A program made the translations under genes and the position numbers. DNA of 64,000 bases from Oscillospiraceae bacterium (GTDB lineage: Bacteria; Bacillota; Clostridia; Saccharofermentanales; Saccharofermentanaceae): assembly GCA_015069205.1 (NCBI GenBank), contig SVIZ01000001.1, positions 289,057 through 353,056 on the forward strand. The letters are read 5' to 3'. Below the pieces are notes generated by a model that saw only the letters and a program-made list of their open reading frames with translations, had not been told where the DNA came from and made no database searches. Below, one piece after another: positions 32,419 through 39,505 of this stretch. The stretch's first letter is position 1. Every line of letters begins with the position of its first letter.

Positions 32419-34056
32419 TTACTTTGCATACCAGCGGTGTCTTCTCCTGTAAGACCTTATTACGCGTACGAGTCCGTCACAGATCGCAACCGATCCTACG
32501 ATCATCATGTAAACCTTAAGTGTGCTTTCAGGAGCAAACAGGATGTAGATTCCGCTGACAGCCCAAACAGCGCTTAAGATTATCATAATGACAGCATATT
32601 TCCTGTTATGTGTCTTTTTCGCTTTGGCCATTCCGTTATATGACGCCGCGAAAAGCAAAGCTGCAAAGATTCCGCTCGCCATGACAAAGAGAGCGCCTTC
32701 CTTTACAAACGTTATTACCGTGGTTGCTACAAGCGCAAAGGAAACAATTGCATCTACAAGATGAGGCTGGAAATTCCAGTTGTCTTTTTTCATTTTCTTT
32801 ATGGTGAGCGAAATAGAAATAACCGTAGCAGTAACAAGAAGAATGCTTACAAAAAAGAAAAGGAATTCTTCAGGTATAAGAAAGCCGATGAGTCCGGCAA
32901 TCATCATGGCAAGACCTTTTGCCAGTTCTGATCTTCTGAACTGCCTTACAACGCCTGATCTGTTTAGTTTTTTGCCTTCTCCGTCAAAGAACATCTGATC
33001 CGGCAATGCAGCAGCCGCGATTCTTAAGCCTCTATCGTCACCTAATACGACATTAAGAATTCTTTCCCATCCTTTGGTACCCTGGGCAGTGAATTCTTCA
33101 ATAGTCTGTGTTCCGTCTTCACTCATGGAATCAAAGAAGGCATTGATGAATCTTCTTCTCTCGTTAATGTCAACGGAATAGATCCACTTATCGATACCCA
33201 TGTTGATCCTTTCAGCCAAAGGATCCAGACCTTCAGATGATAAAAGAAGATCACCATGGTCGATCCCCCAGGAGCAGAGTTCATGCTGCTCGGCCATCTG
33301 CTTGTCACTTTTGACGATGTAACTGTCATCTATCTCCGGTGCGAACAGACTTCCGACAACTGAGAACTCGGGAATGATCCTCGTAGTCTTGGGATTTGCT
33401 CTCTTGATGAGATCTTCTTTTAAGACTTCCGGACAGAATCCGGGACCGTCATTGGAATAAATATGTTCAACTCTGCCGAAAAGATCATCAGGCAGAACAG
33501 CTGCAGCATAAACCGCGAGATTACCGCCTTTTGAATGACCTCCGACAAATACGGTATCAAACGATCTAAGAGCATTGCGGAGATAATCTTCTGCCATGGT
33601 CTGCGAAGAAGTCAGCATAAAGCTTGTCATGAAATCTTCCTTCCAACCGGCGATCGTGCTGTCCGTGCCTCTGTAAGCTACAAAGGCCCAGCCGCCTTTC
33701 TTCTCGGGCGAGAAGGTCATTGCGGAAAACTGTATGGAGTCTTCTTCGTTGAGAATATCCGTGAAGGAGGAGATATAAAGGTCACCGAATCTTTTCGAGT
33801 TTGCGGCAGCCTTAACGAGCGCCGTAAAACGCTCGCTGTCATCGGGTGCCATTTTCCTGATCGAAAAACCGAGATTGGTAAGCGACATGACTGCTTCCCT
33901 GAGCGTCATTACACCGCCTTCTTCGTTGATCTCGGGAATGTCTTTAAGGTCGAGATAAGATAACTGACAGAGCACGATGTTATCGACTCTTGAAAAGGGC
34001 CTGCCTTCAAAGCCGGTACCGCCTACCCAGCGGACATAATCAGTTATGTTATCCAT
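32419..34056 (-). CDS. DUF2974 (Mbeg1-like) lipase-type hydrolase with C-terminal membrane domain
   Basis: The N-terminal half (about 1-370) is an alpha/beta hydrolase of the DUF2974 family. It has AFVAYRGTDSTIAGWKEDF and the nucleophile elbow GHSKG (173-177, S175). The C-terminal part from about residue 385 has five or six hydrophobic helices resembling DUF308-like membrane modules. DUF2974 members are annotated as lipase-like, but substrates are not known. There is no signal peptide, so the hydrolase probably faces the cytoplasm. The gene follows the NodB gene by 9 bases. Membrane tethering suggests a lipid or lipid-linked substrate (inference). Confidence 0.85.
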   Translation of the reverse strand: MDNITDYVRWVGGTGFEGRPFSRVDNIVLCQLSYLDLKDIPEINEEGGVMTLREAVMSLTNLGFSIRKMAPDDSERFTALVKAAANSKRFGDLYISSFTDILNEEDSIQFSAMTFSPEKKGGWAFVAYRGTDSTIAGWKEDFMTSFMLTSSQTMAEDYLRNALRSFDTVFVGGHSKGGNLAVYAAAVLPDDLFGRVEHIYSNDGPGFCPEVLKEDLIKRANPKTTRIIPEFSVVGSLFAPEIDDSYIVKSDKQMAEQHELCSWGIDHGDLLLSSEGLDPLAERINMGIDKWIYSVDINERRRFINAFFDSMSEDGTQTIEEFTAQGTKGWERILNVVLGDDRGLRIAAAALPDQMFFDGEGKKLNRSGVVRQFRRSELAKGLAMMIAGLIGFLIPEEFLFFFVSILLVTATVISISLTIKKMKKDNWNFQPHLVDAIVSFALVATTVITFVKEGALFVMASGIFAALLFAASYNGMAKAKKTHNRKYAVIMIILSAVWAVSGIYILFAPESTLKVYMMIVGSVAICDGLVRVIRSYRRRHRWYAK

Positions 34057-34065
34057 ACCTTAAGA

Positions 34066-35469
34066 TTATCTGTTTTCTATTGAATAGTAAACAACTCCGT
34101 CTTCAAGTCCGCCCTGCTTAAGGATTCCCATCTCTTCTACGGTAACGCACTGGAAACCTGCATCAACAAGCGCGGGAACGATTCTAGCTGTTGCATTGGC
34201 TGTAGATTCATAGAGGTCATGCATAAGAACTATGTCACCGTCTTTTACCTTGCCGACTATTGCATTATATACCTTATCCGCATTTCTGCTCTCCCAGTCA
34301 CGTGAATCGACGCTCCACAAGATGATCGGGCATCCGCATACTTCCTTAAGCGTATCATCCCATCTGCCTTCAGGAGGTCTTAAACATGTGGAGGGCTTAC
34401 CTGTAATCCTGATAAGCTCGTCATCTGTTCCCTTAAGAACATCTATCTGGCCTTCTCCGTCAAGATCGGTAAGTCTGTTATGGCTGTATGTGTGGTTGCC
34501 CTGCTCACAGCCAAGCTCATACTCGCGGATTGCAGCTTCCTCATTCCAGGAGATCCTGTCTCCTACTATGAAGAATGTACACTTCTGTCCGTATTCCTCG
34601 TAAACATCGAGGATTGCATCCGTATAGATCGAAGGACCGTCATCGTAAGTTAAAGCGACCATCGGCTGGTTGCCGTCAACCTCACGTGTGATGTTGCCTT
34701 CATCATCGAAATAGTAAAGGTGATTATCTCCAACAGCTCTCTCATTTCTGATCATCTTGCCTGCGATAAAACCATGTCTTGAACCTTCAACTTCAATGAT
34801 GCCGTCGATTCCTTCACCGGTTATCTCATCAAAATAATATCTGTCTTCTTTGATATCGACCCAGCCCTTAGTCATGAGGCCGGTCTCTTCATCAAAGTAA
34901 TACTGCTTGTCCTCAATTATCTGGAGGCCCTTTGATACCTTTCCGGTGTCGGGATCGGCATAATACTTTCCATCCTCATTGCCGAACAGGCCCTTTGTAA
35001 CAGTGAATGATTCAGGTGAGAAATAATAAAGGCTGCCGTCGATCTCAGTCCAGTCTGAAGCGGCATTACCCGTGTTGAGATCAAAATAGAATGTACCCTC
35101 ATCAGACTTATACCAGCCTGTCTTCATGATGCCTGTCTCAACACTGTAGTATCTGAGAGCACCGTTTACGGTCTGGAAACCTGTCATCATTACACCGTCA
35201 GCATCAAACAGATACTTGTTGCCGTCGATAATGGTCTCGCCCTTAGCCATGATGTGGGTTTCTTCATCAAAATATCGTCTGGTTCCGTCTTCAGGCATAA
35301 CGTGCATACCTGAATACTCTTCGCCATGCTCATCGTAATAGAAAGCAGCATCACCGGAATAGACCCAGCCTCTGTTCGCGCCGGACCTTACTTCACAACC
35401 CCATGCAACAGTACTGAGAACAGCTGTAATAGCCGCCATGACAAATACTGCAAAAATATTCTTAACCAT
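34066..35469 (-). CDS. Secreted polysaccharide deacetylase with cell-wall binding repeats
   Basis: The 467-residue protein has a signal peptide (about 1-24, ending AWG-C). Next come about eight choline-binding/glucan-binding-type repeats of the YYFDEETGLMTKGW kind (about 30-250). A NodB domain (about 260-455) follows, with TYDDGPS, the metal-binding HTYSH and RPPEGRWDD motifs. It is predicted to sit on the envelope and remove acetyl groups from peptidoglycan or another polysaccharide. Repeats N-terminal to NodB are the usual layout. AAGGAG precedes the ATG. It may be co-transcribed with the DUF2974 gene. Confidence 0.93.
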   Translation of the reverse strand: MVKNIFAVFVMAAITAVLSTVAWGCEVRSGANRGWVYSGDAAFYYDEHGEEYSGMHVMPEDGTRRYFDEETHIMAKGETIIDGNKYLFDADGVMMTGFQTVNGALRYYSVETGIMKTGWYKSDEGTFYFDLNTGNAASDWTEIDGSLYYFSPESFTVTKGLFGNEDGKYYADPDTGKVSKGLQIIEDKQYYFDEETGLMTKGWVDIKEDRYYFDEITGEGIDGIIEVEGSRHGFIAGKMIRNERAVGDNHLYYFDDEGNITREVDGNQPMVALTYDDGPSIYTDAILDVYEEYGQKCTFFIVGDRISWNEEAAIREYELGCEQGNHTYSHNRLTDLDGEGQIDVLKGTDDELIRITGKPSTCLRPPEGRWDDTLKEVCGCPIILWSVDSRDWESRNADKVYNAIVGKVKDGDIVLMHDLYESTANATARIVPALVDAGFQCVTVEEMGILKQGGLEDGVVYYSIENR

Positions 35470-35590
35470 ATCAATCTCCTTGTGATACTCCTAAATTCCC
35501 CTCGCTAGTTTATCACGGTGTCACAAGCAGTTGTGGTACATTTATGTTACAGAATAACGGACCTTTTTGCCGTTTATTTATGCACGCTGA

Positions 35591-36037
35591 TTAAGTTCCA
35601 CGCACCTCTTTAAGAAGGCTCTTAAGCAGAAGATACCTTTCGTATTTCTCCTGCTTTGCAAAATGAACCTCACGGCTCTGAGGATTGGTATTATCAAAAA
35701 CAAGGCTTGCGGCCTCATCACCGAACTGCTCGATGGTAAGGTCATACTGCTTCCCGTCTATTACGTTATAGCAATGGTAGTTTCCGCCCGGTCTTAAGAT
35801 CCCGTATACTTCTCCTCCAAAGATATCCTGAACAAGAAAAGCAGTGATGGAGCACTGTCCCAAAGTAATGTTGTCTTCACTCCAGTCAACACGGAGCCTC
35901 GGCGCACATGTCTCTATCCTCCAGATGCCATCCGACAGCACATCGAAAAGATCCAGAAGCGAATCGAGCCTGTATTCACTGTTATCAACCGGCTTTACTG
36001 TATCTGCGGTCCCGTGCCCGAGAAACTTATAATCCAT
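35591..36037 (-). CDS. YunG-family protein
   Basis: The 148-residue soluble protein matches the YunG pattern: a conserved CS near GQCSITAFLVQDIFGGEV, HCYNVIDGKQYDLTIEQFG, and a C-terminal helix starting RYLLLKSLL. The Cys, His and Asp spacing resembles papain or transglutaminase folds, so a cysteine hydrolase role is possible but unproven. It has AAAGGGAG in front and its own promoter (36066-36094). The hairpin array begins 12 bases beyond that promoter. Confidence 0.75.
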   Translation of the reverse strand: MDYKFLGHGTADTVKPVDNSEYRLDSLLDLFDVLSDGIWRIETCAPRLRVDWSEDNITLGQCSITAFLVQDIFGGEVYGILRPGGNYHCYNVIDGKQYDLTIEQFGDEAASLVFDNTNPQSREVHFAKQEKYERYLLLKSLLKEVRGT

Positions 36038-36065
36038 CTTTTATCTCCCTTTGGGTTTTGAAAAT

Positions 36066-36094
36066 ATAATACACGCGTGGGGTCGTGGTTGCAA
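36066..36094 (-). promoter_or_regulatory. Predicted promoter of the YunG-like gene
   Basis: The -35 TTGCAA (36089-36094) and -10 TATTAT (36066-36071) are 17 bases apart, and the -10 has an upstream TG. Hairpin 1 of the array starts 12 bases upstream of the -35. The plus strand has TATAAT at 36065-36070 but no good -35. Confidence 0.6.
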
Positions 36095-36105
36095 AAGTGC
36101 GGGGG

Positions 36106-36363
36106 TACCTACTAAATCGCGAAAATGAAAAATAGTAGGTATGTTTTCGAGATGTTAGCGTGCGTGAAACCGAAGAACATACCTACTAAAATTCGAAAAC
36201 GCAAATTAGTAGGTATAGTTTTCGAGAATATAGAGTGATTTTGAGGCTCGCGATACCTACTAAATTTCAAATTTGCATTTTAGTAGGTACATTTGCCAGA
36301 AAGTCGAAGTCCTGAATCCTCTTTTTATACCTACTAAATCGCGAAAACCGTTTTTAGTAGGTA
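36106..36363. repeat. Class A subarray: four 36-nt TACCTACTAA/TTAGTAGGTA hairpins
   Basis: Hairpins lie at 36106-36141, 36180-36215, 36254-36289 and 36328-36363, each exactly 36 nt, separated by exactly 38 nt. Perfect arm lengths are 9, 10, 11 and 11 bp. Loops differ, though two share TCGCGAAAA. Spacers 1 and 2 share GTTTTCGAGA near their start. Confidence 0.92.
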
Positions 36364-36365
36364 CT

Positions 36366-36625
36366 TACCCACTAAACTCCGATTTTTATAAAGTTAGTGG
36401 GTAATTTTCCAAAGCCGAAACTTAATTCACAAGATCATTTACCCACTAAACATCGAATATCTGCGAGTTAGTGGGTAAATTTTCGAAGTTATAACGCGAT
36501 TTAAATGATTCCTTACCCACTAACCTGTTACTTTTTGAAGTTTAGTGGGTATTCTCATCGAAAACATAAACGGAAAAGAAACTAAAATACCCACTAAATC
36601 GGGATTTTCCGTCGTTTAGTGGGTA
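36366..36625. repeat. Class B subarray: four 38-nt TACCCACTAA/TTAGTGGGTA hairpins
   Basis: Hairpins lie at 36366-36403, 36440-36477, 36514-36551 and 36588-36625, each exactly 38 nt, separated by exactly 36 nt. Arms are 10-11 bp and extend outward to 13 bp in the second (36437-36480). It begins 2 bases after class A ends. The last hairpin runs into the U-tract of the hpf terminator. Confidence 0.92.
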
Positions 36626-36651
36626 AAAAAGAGGCTGCCATAAAGGCAGCC
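36625..36651 (-). terminator. Rho-independent terminator of hpf
   Basis: GGCTGCC (36633-36639) pairs with GGCAGCC (36645-36651) around a 5-base loop. On the minus strand it is followed by TCTTTTTT, whose end abuts hairpin 8 of the array. Confidence 0.88.
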
Positions 36652-36680
36652 CCCGGATATATTTTTAACTTGATCAGATA

Positions 36681-37223
36681 TCAGTATTCAGGTTCGAGTA
36701 ATCCGTAACCTCCGTCATATCTCTTGTAAACAACACATACTGAATTTGTATCACTGTCGAGATATACGAAGAAATCGTGTCCGAGCATCTCAAGCTGAAG
36801 GATAGCATCTTCGGATGTCATGGGTCTTAAAGCGAACTGCTTGCGCTTTGTGATCTTATCATCCTTCTCGTCAACGAAGTCGAAATCTGCTCCGCCGTCA
36901 TCCTCGAGATAATTAACAATTCCCGGGAAGTCCTTCTTTCTCTTAAGGAACTTGGTCTTCTGTCTTCTGATCTGAGATTCAAGCTTATCGACTGTTCTGT
37001 CAACTGCTGTAAGGATATCCTCATCGCTTGCCTCAGCCCTTAAGATCTTGCCGTCGAATTTCATTGTGATCTCAACGATCATCTCGGGACCTTCAGGTCT
37101 GATACGGACATTGAGTGAACCTTCATCGCCGAAGTACTTGTCGAACTTAGACATCTTGGCGGCGATCTTCTCTTCAAGTCTTGTACCGATGCGAATTCCG
37201 TTGCCCTGTGTAGTGATCTTCAT
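36681..37223 (-). CDS. hpf: Long-form ribosome hibernation promoting factor HPF
   Basis: The 180-residue protein has the N-terminal S30AE/RaiA domain (about 1-100, starting MKITTQGNGIRIG) and the C-terminal dimerisation domain (about 125-178, KRKQFALRPMTSEDAILQLEML in pieces). Long HPF pairs ribosomes into 100S dimers in slow growth. The gene has its own promoter region and terminator, so it is monocistronic. Shine-Dalgarno AAGGGAG precedes the ATG. The hairpin array lies directly beyond its terminator. Confidence 0.97.
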   Translation of the reverse strand: MKITTQGNGIRIGTRLEEKIAAKMSKFDKYFGDEGSLNVRIRPEGPEMIVEITMKFDGKILRAEASDEDILTAVDRTVDKLESQIRRQKTKFLKRKKDFPGIVNYLEDDGGADFDFVDEKDDKITKRKQFALRPMTSEDAILQLEMLGHDFFVYLDSDTNSVCVVYKRYDGGYGLLEPEY

Positions 37224-37275
37224 AAAATCACTCCCTTCCGTTTTGAAGTTTCAAAAGGCTTTGACCTTTGATTAA

Positions 37276-37281
37276 ATTATA
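37276..37281 (-). promoter_or_regulatory. Candidate -10 of hpf
   Basis: TATAAT on the minus strand lies about 53 bases before the hpf start. No consensus -35 is present at 17-18 bases, so an activator or an alternative sigma factor may be involved. Confidence 0.4.
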
Positions 37282-37323
37282 AACGATTGAGGGAGCGAAT
37301 TAAGTTAAATTTGTATTAATTCA

Positions 37324-37836
37324 TCAGTCTTCGTGCTCAGACCAGATGTTTGCGCCGCCGCGGTCAAGAGCAACAAGGCCGGTACGGCACATCTCGATGA
37401 TGTCGAACTTCTTCATATACTCGATGAATGCATCGATCTTCTGGCTGTCACCTGTGGCTTCGATGCTGATCGCTTCATCTGTGAAGTCGATGATCTTCGT
37501 GCGGAAAATATTTGTCGCTTCAACGATGTCAGCATGCTGCTGTTCGGTGTTCCTGACCTTTATGAGAAGAAGTTCTCTCTTGATACATTCTTCTGCAGAA
37601 AGAACGATGACTTTTTTAACGTTGTAGAGTTTACGGAGCTGGGACACAACCTGATCCTTCTCGTTCTTCTCTGCACTTAAAGTGATAGTGATACGGGAAT
37701 ACTCAGGAGATTCCGTCTCACCTACCGTGAGGGAATCGATGTTATATCCGCGTCTTGTGAACATGGCGGTAACACGTGAGAGGACACCATACTGGTTATC
37801 AACGTAGATCGCAATGATTATCTTATTTTTCTGCAT
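37324..37836 (-). CDS. ilvN: Acetolactate synthase small (regulatory) subunit IlvN/IlvH
   Basis: The 170-residue protein has an N-terminal ACT domain (about 4-78, IIAIYVDNQYGVLSRVTAMFTRRGYNI in pieces) that binds branched-chain amino acids for feedback inhibition. A second ACT-like region (about 82-160) follows. It overlaps the large-subunit gene by 14 bases, which favours stoichiometric synthesis. Confidence 0.95.
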   Translation of the reverse strand: MQKNKIIIAIYVDNQYGVLSRVTAMFTRRGYNIDSLTVGETESPEYSRITITLSAEKNEKDQVVSQLRKLYNVKKVIVLSAEECIKRELLLIKVRNTEQQHADIVEATNIFRTKIIDFTDEAISIEATGDSQKIDAFIEYMKKFDIIEMCRTGLVALDRGGANIWSEHED

Positions 37837-39505
37837 CGCTGATATCCTCCCTCCTCAAGATGAGATTGTTGAATGTTCCGCCCGGTTTTAACATCGGAAG
37901 AACAACGCTGTCGGTCTTTATCGTAAGATCGATCACAGCAGGTCCTTTTACCTTATACGCTTTCTTAAAAGCTTCTTCAAAAGACTCTTTGTCGGTTGCT
38001 TTAAAACCCTTGGCACCAAAAGCCTGTGCGAGCTTAACGAAGTCTGTCTTACGGTCAAGCGTGGTATTTGAATATCTTCCGTCGAAGAATATCTTCTGCC
38101 ACTGTCTTACCATTCCCAGTGCATGGTTGTTAAAGATAACTATCGTTACGGGAACATTGTATGTAACCGCAGTTGCAAGTTCATTAAGACACATGCCGAA
38201 GCTTCCGTCACCTGTGATAAGAACGCTTCTCTTACCTGTTCCCATATAGCTTCCGATGGCAGCGCCAAGACCGAATCCCATGGTTCCCAGACCGCCCGAT
38301 GTGATCCATGTGCGCTTGTTTCTGAACTTGAAGAACTGTGCTGTCCAGCACTGATGCTGACCTACGTCAGTAACGATCCTTGTGTCGGGTTTTACGATAT
38401 CGGAAATGATGTTGATCGTATCACGCGGCAGGAAAGGAAGTCCTTCGTATGCATCTGCCTCTCTCTGCTTGAGCTGCTCAACTTTCTTGATCCATTCCGT
38501 ATTCTTGCGCTGGGGAACTGCATGTGTAAGATGCTTTACAAAATCTTTTATGTCACAGCAGACACCGAGATCAACAGGAATATTCTTGCCGATTTCGGCA
38601 CGGTCACAGTCAACGTGGATCTTTGTAGCGGAGAGAGAAAACTTCTCCGTTTTTCCCGTTGCCCTGTCCGAAAATCTAACGCCCAGAGCGAGTATCAAAT
38701 CTGCTTTTGCAAGCGCAACAGAGGATGCATAACGTCCGTGCATTCCCTGCATTCCCAAAAATCTCGGAGAGTCGGAAGGTATCTCAGAAAGTCCCATCAT
38801 GGAACATCCGATTACGGCATCGAGTTTGTCGGCAAGTTTGATTATGTCTTCGCCGAGTTCTGTTCTTACGGCACCGCCGCCGAAATAGATATAAGGTCTT
38901 TTGGATTCCTTGATAAGCTGTACTGCTTTATCAATATCTTCTGTGTTACATCCGGGAAGGACTTCAGGTTTCTCGACAGGCTTTTTCTTGTAATCGAAAA
39001 CAGCCTCCTGGACATCTTTAGGAATATCGATCAGGACCGGACCTGGTCTTCCGGACTGTGCTATCTCAAAAGCTTTTCTCACAACATCTGCGAGCTTGGA
39101 AATCTTGTGTACGAAGAAGTTGTGTTTTGTGATGGGAAGAGTAATGCCGGTGATATCGATCTCCTGGAACGAGTCTCTTCCGATCATGGAATTGCTTACG
39201 TTGCCCGTAATGGCAACAAGCGGGATCGAATCAAGATAGGCCGTGGCGATTCCTGTGACAAGGTTGGTTGCACCGGGACCGGAAGTCGCAATAACGACTC
39301 CGGTCTTTCCGGTGGATCTTGCATAACCATCTGCTGCGTGAACAGCACCTTCTTCGTGAGCGGTCAGGATGTGCTTGATCTTATCCTGCTTGTCGTAGAG
39401 TTTGTCATAGATATCAACGACCATTCCGCCCGGAAAACCGAACACCGTATCAACACCTTGTTCTAACAAGGTCTCGACAAGTATCTGTGCCCCGGTCATC
39501 TTCAT
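37823..39505 (-). CDS. ilvB: Acetolactate synthase large (catalytic) subunit
   Basis: The 560-residue ThDP enzyme condenses pyruvate to acetolactate, or pyruvate with 2-oxobutyrate, for valine, leucine and isoleucine synthesis. FGFPGG (22-27), HEEGAVHAADGYAR with the ThDP-activating Glu at 51, and GDGSFGMCLNELAT (ThDP/Mg motif) are present. AGAGGA precedes the ATG. Only 27 bases separate it from the upstream protease gene, so there is no room for a T-box leader. Confidence 0.96.
   Translation of the reverse strand: MKMTGAQILVETLLEQGVDTVFGFPGGMVVDIYDKLYDKQDKIKHILTAHEEGAVHAADGYARSTGKTGVVIATSGPGATNLVTGIATAYLDSIPLVAITGNVSNSMIGRDSFQEIDITGITLPITKHNFFVHKISKLADVVRKAFEIAQSGRPGPVLIDIPKDVQEAVFDYKKKPVEKPEVLPGCNTEDIDKAVQLIKESKRPYIYFGGGAVRTELGEDIIKLADKLDAVIGCSMMGLSEIPSDSPRFLGMQGMHGRYASSVALAKADLILALGVRFSDRATGKTEKFSLSATKIHVDCDRAEIGKNIPVDLGVCCDIKDFVKHLTHAVPQRKNTEWIKKVEQLKQREADAYEGLPFLPRDTINIISDIVKPDTRIVTDVGQHQCWTAQFFKFRNKRTWITSGGLGTMGFGLGAAIGSYMGTGKRSVLITGDGSFGMCLNELATAVTYNVPVTIVIFNNHALGMVRQWQKIFFDGRYSNTTLDRKTDFVKLAQAFGAKGFKATDKESFEEAFKKAYKVKGPAVIDLTIKTDSVVLPMLKPGGTFNNLILRREDISDAEK

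Follow-up and report, generated by a model that had tools for sequence, protein, structure and literature searches.

Eight dyads between hpf and a YunG-family gene: two arrays of a dispersed repeat and their probable link to a predicted PD-(D/E)XK nuclease family

The intergenic region between an hpf-like and a YunG-family gene of an Oscillospiraceae bacterium raises the question of what eight regularly spaced inverted repeats (dyads) within 520 nucleotides may be. They occupy positions 36106-36625 of the window, i.e. the whole 64,000-nucleotide stretch analysed here (assembly GCA_015069205.1, contig SVIZ01000001.1, positions 289,057 to 353,056). A preliminary description of this sequence had read them as one array of eight hairpins. 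We found all eight inverted repeats at the starts reported there; however, they form two abutting four-dyad arrays (tetrads) of different arm type, units of two specificities and not a single one. We consider it rather probable that both belong to a dispersed repeat private to certain lineages, and that its duplex DNA is the likely binding site of a predicted PD-(D/E)XK nuclease; genes for this protein family often have an array of like design directly upstream.

The pitch is 74 bp inside each tetrad (Table 1), or about seven helix turns, and dyad 5 starts 38 bp after the start of dyad 4. All 10-bp arms are perfect but for dyad 1, whose right arm (ATAGTAGGTA) has one mismatch. Tetrad junctions of 2-3 nt recur at loci L040, L056, L058, L069, L070 and L104. 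Since the separately assembled L056 and L040 carry the same array in the same place (aligned DNA 95.9% and 95.3% identical, respectively), it is not an assembly artefact, a case that the preliminary description had allowed for.

Comparison with a reversed control pattern excluded chance as the source of the dyads. In the window's own genome the exact dyad pattern occurs 22 times and the control 0 times, and an N16 pattern with up to 3 mismatches matches 25 places, again with 0 for the control. All 57 exact half-sites of this genome (contigs C12, C19, C27, C31 and C36) lie inside dyads, which form arrays, pairs and one single dyad; an avoidance of half-sites elsewhere is not claimed, as only 0.5-3.4 were expected outside dyads under Markov models. 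Four of the six own multi-dyad T-type arrays have four dyads and the remaining two have five and six.

The pattern search proposed earlier revealed similar arrays in many herbivore-gut Clostridia. A scan of 84,980 species genomes returned 98 stretches, in which multi-dyad stretches came mostly from herbivore-gut Clostridia bins and also from two Treponema bins; many single dyads from unrelated bacteria look chance-like, and three matches on viral contigs, single dyads only, were treated as chance. With any base allowed at position 5, the pattern matched 17 of the 115 genomes of the window's family, and presence is patchy: the richest genomes have 43, 22, 22, 19, 16, 15, 15 and 14 dyads and 98 have none. 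Some genera of the family use an TACCGACTAA arm. Array position is kept between species at several loci, and recurrent neighbours in a first set of loci were mostly housekeeping genes. A phage or plasmid origin was ruled out by the best matches of the array, which reached E-values of 7 and 0.1 over at most 7% of its length, with nothing better than E 0.1. The two Treponema bins (L030, L035) share the same mixed T/C-type array with linkers of 15 and 57, a case either of cross-phylum transfer or of misbinned contigs.

The unit of four is most clearly seen in the genus-mate G005, whose own array at this hpf-yunG site has arms of an unrelated sequence, TGTATCGAAA-N19-TTTCGATACA. The TGTATCGAAA dyad was found in 51 exact copies in G005, in one copy in G020 and in none of the other 113 family genomes. 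Eleven G005 arrays were read, those among the matches listed (34 of the 51 dyads, all on contig C1); ten of them consist of four dyads, with linkers of 14-12-14 (nine arrays) or 14-13-14 (one array). L148, with two exact dyads and a degenerate piece, and a weak fifth dyad of L150 were kept out of the tetrad statistics. Across the ten tetrads the arms are 98% identical, the loops 48% and the linkers 45%, and the outer flanks are mostly unrelated. These loops look like diverging copies and not like acquired spacers. Conserved arms, together with loops and linkers that have diverged yet hold their lengths, support the earlier proposal that selection acts on the dyads and their positions, and a multi-site platform rather than a decaying copy.

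Deviations and geometry of the dyads distinguish between a duplex and a hairpin. With 8 duplicate loci set aside, and with them 27 that look like chance (for the most part single dyads), 268 dyads were compared. Deviations from the arm consensus affected one arm in 138 cases and both arms in 15; in the G005 arrays the counts were 9 and 0. Summed over dyads, mismatches gave 46 G-U and 56 A-C combinations and hence no G-U excess. Position 5 departs from the one-arm rule. The two arms agree there in 244 of 268 dyads, where 125 were expected, and its base sets the T, C and G types apart. Among 183 distinct linkers of up to 60 nt, 178 measure 2-3, 15-16, 25-26, 35-38 or 57 bp, the other five being 17, 23, 28, 52 and 60. 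Spacings between dyad centres, with duplicate and orthologous loci left out and each pitch counted once per array (n=174), cluster at 39-41, 50-54, 61-66, 73-75, 95 and 104-105 bp, with one occurrence each of 56, 59, 89, 91, 98 and 108. For a period of 10.5 bp their helical phasing gave R 0.77, the 99% null being 0.22; the best pooled period, 11.05 (R 0.81), fits slightly better. G005 alone gave a best period of 12.55, which is uninformative because nearly all its pitches are 51-53.

The loop centre is A/T in 82-100% of cases depending on loop length, and in 97% for the commonest length. Between the arms, constraint is confined to this centre and to the arm-adjacent bases, and no box C/D-like motif stands out. 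Outward from the centre, A/T content rises and falls roughly once per helix turn, which the 74-bp class shows best. Positions of about 8-18 are set by the arms themselves. Judged from the sequences, geometry, deviations and position 5 point to a protein that binds duplex DNA with two-fold symmetry, a far better fit than base-paired hairpins. The earlier label of hairpins is probably wrong, since spacing follows the DNA helix and most arm deviations are one-sided and uncompensated.

A candidate for such a protein came from other loci. The preliminary description had placed the array between hpf and yunG, and both flanks were correctly named, but this is one locus among several and not the key to function; the informative neighbour is a family of nuclease-like genes with arrays directly upstream. 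In G005, one tetrad immediately precedes a gene whose homologue in the window's genome lies behind the comEC-side T-type array. The encoded protein is uncharacterised, about 265 amino acids long, with a predicted PD-(D/E)XK core and a variable N-terminal coiled-coil/beta domain. Acidic core residues are conserved (E163 in 89/90, D194 in 89/90, E209 in 88/90); the lysine two residues after (D/E) is not, the alignment reading E209-H210-x. Variants of the canonical lysine are known in the PD-(D/E)XK superfamily. The window genome's own protein had no Pfam match at E up to 10, and a sequence search of solved structures and PHROGs with the nuclease-like protein gave nothing useful. A family profile was positive in 108 of 115 family genomes, with 1-11 copies each and six in the window's genome, and a large protein database held 2,767 family proteins at E up to 1e-5, with a Pfam domain in 0 of 120 among the matches listed.

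Arrays were called at 90 nuclease loci, a non-random set of 30 loci returned automatically and 60 taken in order from the profile matches listed, if at least two like dyads lay within 520 nt upstream or downstream; shuffled upstream sequences served as control. This revealed arrays upstream at 44 loci, downstream at 6 and in 0 shuffled sequences. A stricter score of 24 left 20, 0 and 0, and an independent repeat statistic again gave 44, 6 and 0 for 89 loci, one with a flank below 300 nt being dropped. At 11 loci the array ends 15-48 nt before the predicted start codon. Arms vary by gene copy (e.g. TTTACCCCAA, TTATCCCAAA, TGTATCGGTA, TTCTACTAAA and GCATACCAAA), and pitches are mostly near 52, 62-64, 74 and 104. 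In the window's genome, the copy G000:C31:25505-26290 is preceded by five TTACTTACTG dyads with a pitch of 73, ending 22 nt before the start. Two Lachnospiraceae bins from ruminant forestomachs also have an array near a homologue (L076, L052); the gene L076:1801-2643 on the minus strand, beside an eight-dyad T-type array, has an in-frame stop in the assembly. At L251 a long tandem array of GCACGGAC...GTCCGTGC dyads lies 3' of the nuclease-like gene and not 5'.

Arm sequences connect these genes with the dispersed arrays. The T-type arm of the window recurs in the array that lies about 19 nt before the own nuclease-like gene G000:C27:134149-134952, and its C-type arm in the one upstream of the orthologous gene in L085 and L103. 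In front of this gene stands a T arm in the window's genome and in the sister genome RUG13324, a C arm in YAD3003 and RGIG2731, a G arm in CAMYXF and the TGTATCGAAA arm in G005; each of these arms is also present among the dispersed arrays of its own genome. A forward prediction with TTTACCCCAA from nuclease locus L200 found 18 dyads in G087 and 0 in the other 114 genomes; the 17 among the matches listed form seven clusters, one of which is the gene's own array, and two of the clusters are complete 14-12-14 tetrads. Arm similarity goes along with protein similarity (Mantel r 0.28, p 0.0005).

Comparison with RUG13324 revealed two loci with closely matching flanks and different whole arrays. 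At L010/L072 (flanks 94.8% identical over 2,442 bp and 91.1% over 575 bp) there is a C-type tetrad in RUG13324 and, with diverged loops, in YAD3003, and a T-type array in the window's genome, the last dyad of which is a hybrid with a T-type left and a C-type right arm, so that the junction lies inside the dyad. At L007/L080 the right flank is 94.3% identical over 3,365 bp and the left is similar by eye; here the T-type array of the window's genome corresponds to a C-type one in RUG13324, TACCGTCCCAA dyads follow both, and the order of types is one that we infer. Recent copies between loci were found in Horse255 (98% over 271 bp), RGIG8631 (95% over 372 bp) and SIG305 (92% over 335 bp). Together this suggests exchange at dyads and an ongoing takeover by the T-type in the window's genome.

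In the mechanism that we propose, a dimer would read each dyad through the variable N-terminal domain. Four dimers could then align along the same helix face, which would bend the DNA at phased A/T tracts and at the A/T centres of the dyads, and the nuclease domain might act at or near the array. A break repaired from another array copy would spread arrays to intergenic sites. Docking is likely and supported by anatomy and association; cutting and copying are steps that we infer. We put forward only tentatively that the whole is a drive-like system, in which a nuclease family widespread in gut Clostridia would read private 10-bp half-sites in phased tetrads, keep an array at its own gene, seed intergenic copies and overwrite older arrays upon a change of specificity, the window then displaying a new array (T-type) beside an old one (C-type). 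The association provides a multi-copy protein family without Pfam match with a likely DNA partner, and in the window's family roughly half of the loci read show the target in the sequence upstream of the gene. Dozens of such protein/target pairs, their 10-bp specificities diverging, would be a natural data set for decoding a new DNA-reading domain, and sequence-private nucleases are useful in practice.

On this reading the system resembles repetitive extragenic palindromic (REP) sequences, their hairpin doublets (REPINs) and REP-associated tyrosine transposases (RAYTs), with a different class of enzyme. REPINs are described as extragenic, dispersed, class-specific inverted repeats with the cognate enzyme gene beside its own class, several classes per genome and a spacer length kept as sequence drifts, with compensatory arm changes said to be common (PMC3116915). 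The repeats of the window are likewise dispersed, extragenic, palindromic and present in many copies (57 half-sites in the own genome, 51 dyads in G005). In contrast, the linked protein has a predicted PD-(D/E)XK core, arm changes are mostly uncompensated, dyads stand in helically phased sets of four and sister genomes differ in whole arrays at the same site. The RAYT-defining Y1/HUH transposase (PF01797, Y1_Tnp) had 0 matches in the window's genome, which is 98.6% complete, while the profile finds matches in 5 of 14 control genomes; a RAYT/IS200 mobiliser was accordingly ruled out. In its working the system appears to resemble REPIN/RAYT, yet it lacks the enzyme and the hairpins by which that system is defined. 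It would be a second, independent solution to the same problem, with duplex DNA, strict helical geometry and a visible takeover between array types.

Other known elements are more distant. The bacterial interspersed mosaic elements of enterobacteria likewise lie at gene ends, as palindromic units strung together by set linkers; the whole unit is conserved there, whereas here only the 10-bp arms are conserved and are private to lineage and gene copy. A sequence relation of the nuclease-like protein to the I-Bth0305I homing endonuclease, Vsr or Bax1 nuclease domains was not detected; it differs from them by H after E209 instead of the canonical X-K, by its N-terminal domain and by the arrays upstream. 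Over its last 120 residues it matches the C-terminus of PDC-S68 (E about 1e-25), a PADLOC phage-defence candidate together with PDC-S69, but the PDC-S68 models span about 1,200 amino acids and the present protein stands alone with 265. The literature searched contained nothing on such arrays or on this protein family, with most subscription journals outside its coverage; this agrees with the earlier view of an undescribed system.

Several observations weigh against the proposed nuclease link or its drive-like extension. Two-arm deviations, 15 against 2.9 expected by independence, leave a weak symmetric signal. An upstream array was not detected at 46 of the 90 nuclease loci, including two of the four own loci read, where the same score found no array. 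Outside the window's family no upstream bias could be shown at this threshold (3 of 14 upstream, 2 of 14 downstream). In RUG13324 the upstream arm is T, yet C-type dyads outnumber T-type among the loci read. A forward prediction with AGCCCACTWA from G047 found one occurrence, at its own gene, and no dispersal. G042 (15 dyads, 80% complete) and G046 (16 dyads, 78% complete) had no detected homologue, and no enzyme was identified for the TACCGTCCCAA dyads among four of the six own homologues read. N- and C-terminal parts were inseparable in the arm correlation, and no target-site duplication was seen in the alignments viewed, which were not a systematic test.

The main rival, which could coexist with the drive-like reading, is autoregulation with decoys: the nuclease-like protein would repress its own gene via the upstream array, and dispersed arrays would be decoys or local regulatory sites (e.g. 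roadblocks at gene ends), with no cutting or copying. The array ends close to start codons described above are in line with it, as is the position kept between species, and so is the rarity of divergent neighbours at 46 loci, of which 15 are convergent, 27 codirectional and 4 divergent in raw counts without genomic background (singles and loci covered by an open reading frame left out, L020 and L036 being chance pairs, and orthologous loci counted apart). In a second set 1 of 12 was divergent (L154, once its nuclease gene is counted). However, conserved catalytic-type residues, dozens of copies in trans and whole-array differences at the same site in sister genomes go beyond autoregulation, and we regard it as unlikely.

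Clearly less probable are chromosome-organising or centromere-like sites for an unlinked DNA-binding protein, to which the nuclease would be secondary, for instance by homing to them. A phased multi-dimer platform, loci that keep their array across species and the two array-bearing genomes without detected homologue would suit such sites, but arms differ between genus-mates and gene copies and match the upstream array of the local nuclease gene, which a conserved housekeeping protein does not explain. Plasmid centromeres such as sopC consist of repeated short dyads at fixed pitch. The analogy drawn earlier is nevertheless poor, as the units here are dispersed on the chromosome in sets of four, lineage-private, variable between species and exchanged between types; no partition genes were found among the neighbours profiled.

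A guide-RNA array, with loops and linkers as spacers of an RNA-guided nuclease, is very improbable: TIGR-Tas also has a nuclease gene beside an array of short constant and variable parts, but its layout of box C/D around two spacers of about 9 nt is not that of the window's arrays, which have inverted arms without box C/D-like conservation, no clear Nop domain in the linked protein, helical spacing, loop centres restricted to A/T, loops in G005 that diverge like copies and the lack of phage or plasmid matches noted above. CRISPR can be set aside as before, as the conserved parts are 10-bp inverted arms and not near-identical direct repeats, and loops and linkers diverge as in the ten G005 tetrads. 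Transcribed hairpins in 3' or 5' untranslated regions that stabilise or terminate mRNA, or a type III RNA antitoxin, are as improbable, for although the arms can pair and arrays lie near gene ends or directly before the nuclease gene, the one-sided deviations, the missing G-U excess and the helical spacing disagree, and no Rfam family reached gathering score in window positions 34000-38500. Type III toxin-antitoxin systems (ToxIN), in which near-identical tandem RNA repeats precede a ToxN-fold RNase, were rejected for diverging loops and for a protein with a predicted PD-(D/E)XK core and no Pfam match.

Table 1. Positions of the two tetrads and of the flanking features in the window
Feature	Position	Strand	Details
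T-type tetrad	36106..36363	none	TACCTACTAA-N16-TTAGTAGGTA x4, starts 36106, 36180, 36254, 36328; linkers 38-38-38
T-type dyads 1-4	36106-36141, 36180-36215, 36254-36289, 36328-36363		36 bp each, loop 16
Tetrad junction, 2 nt	36364..36365	none	between T-type and C-type tetrads
C-type tetrad	36366..36625	none	TACCCACTAA-N18-TTAGTGGGTA x4, starts 36366, 36440, 36514, 36588; linkers 36-36-36
C-type dyads 5-8	36366-36403, 36440-36477, 36514-36551, 36588-36625		38 bp each, loop 18
Terminator-like hairpin and T run of hpf-like gene	36626..36653	minus	abuts last dyad directly; read from sequence
hpf-like gene (Ribosomal_S30AE and C-terminal domain)	36681..37223	minus	flank
YunG-family gene (PF24585)	35591..36037	minus	flank; start codon 69 nt from array

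Downstream of hpf in G094 (L121), where the hpf-like protein is 99% identical, the same site has degenerate dyad remnants, which suggests decay of arrays that are no longer maintained. Dyads of a third class, TACCGTCCCAA...TTGGGACGGTA, were found next to T-, C- or G-type arrays at L007:503-660, left of the array at L010 and after the hpf array of L120 (G105). A run of ACAGACTAAAA-type dyads with a pitch of about 53 stands beside one TACCTACTAA dyad in a Lachnospiraceae bin (L027:2292-2600). In Firm_13 (L075:5247-5573), a three-dyad array has a longer tandem repeat next to it (ATTACCACACCG..., about 95 bp).

In a second arrangement, two dyads are separated by about 180 bp; GGGGGTATAT follows the first of them, and a ATACCCCCTGGGGGTAT-like palindrome, which we take to resemble a CsoR-type operator, follows the second. 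It was found at L009, L013, L024, L025, L095, L111, L057, L112, L042 and L043, which include the copies of the window's genome at C19:121048-121265 and C31:15652-15869. At L057 it is flanked by an EamA gene on one side and a Trns_repr_metal gene on the other, and the flanking genes at L112 are homologous.
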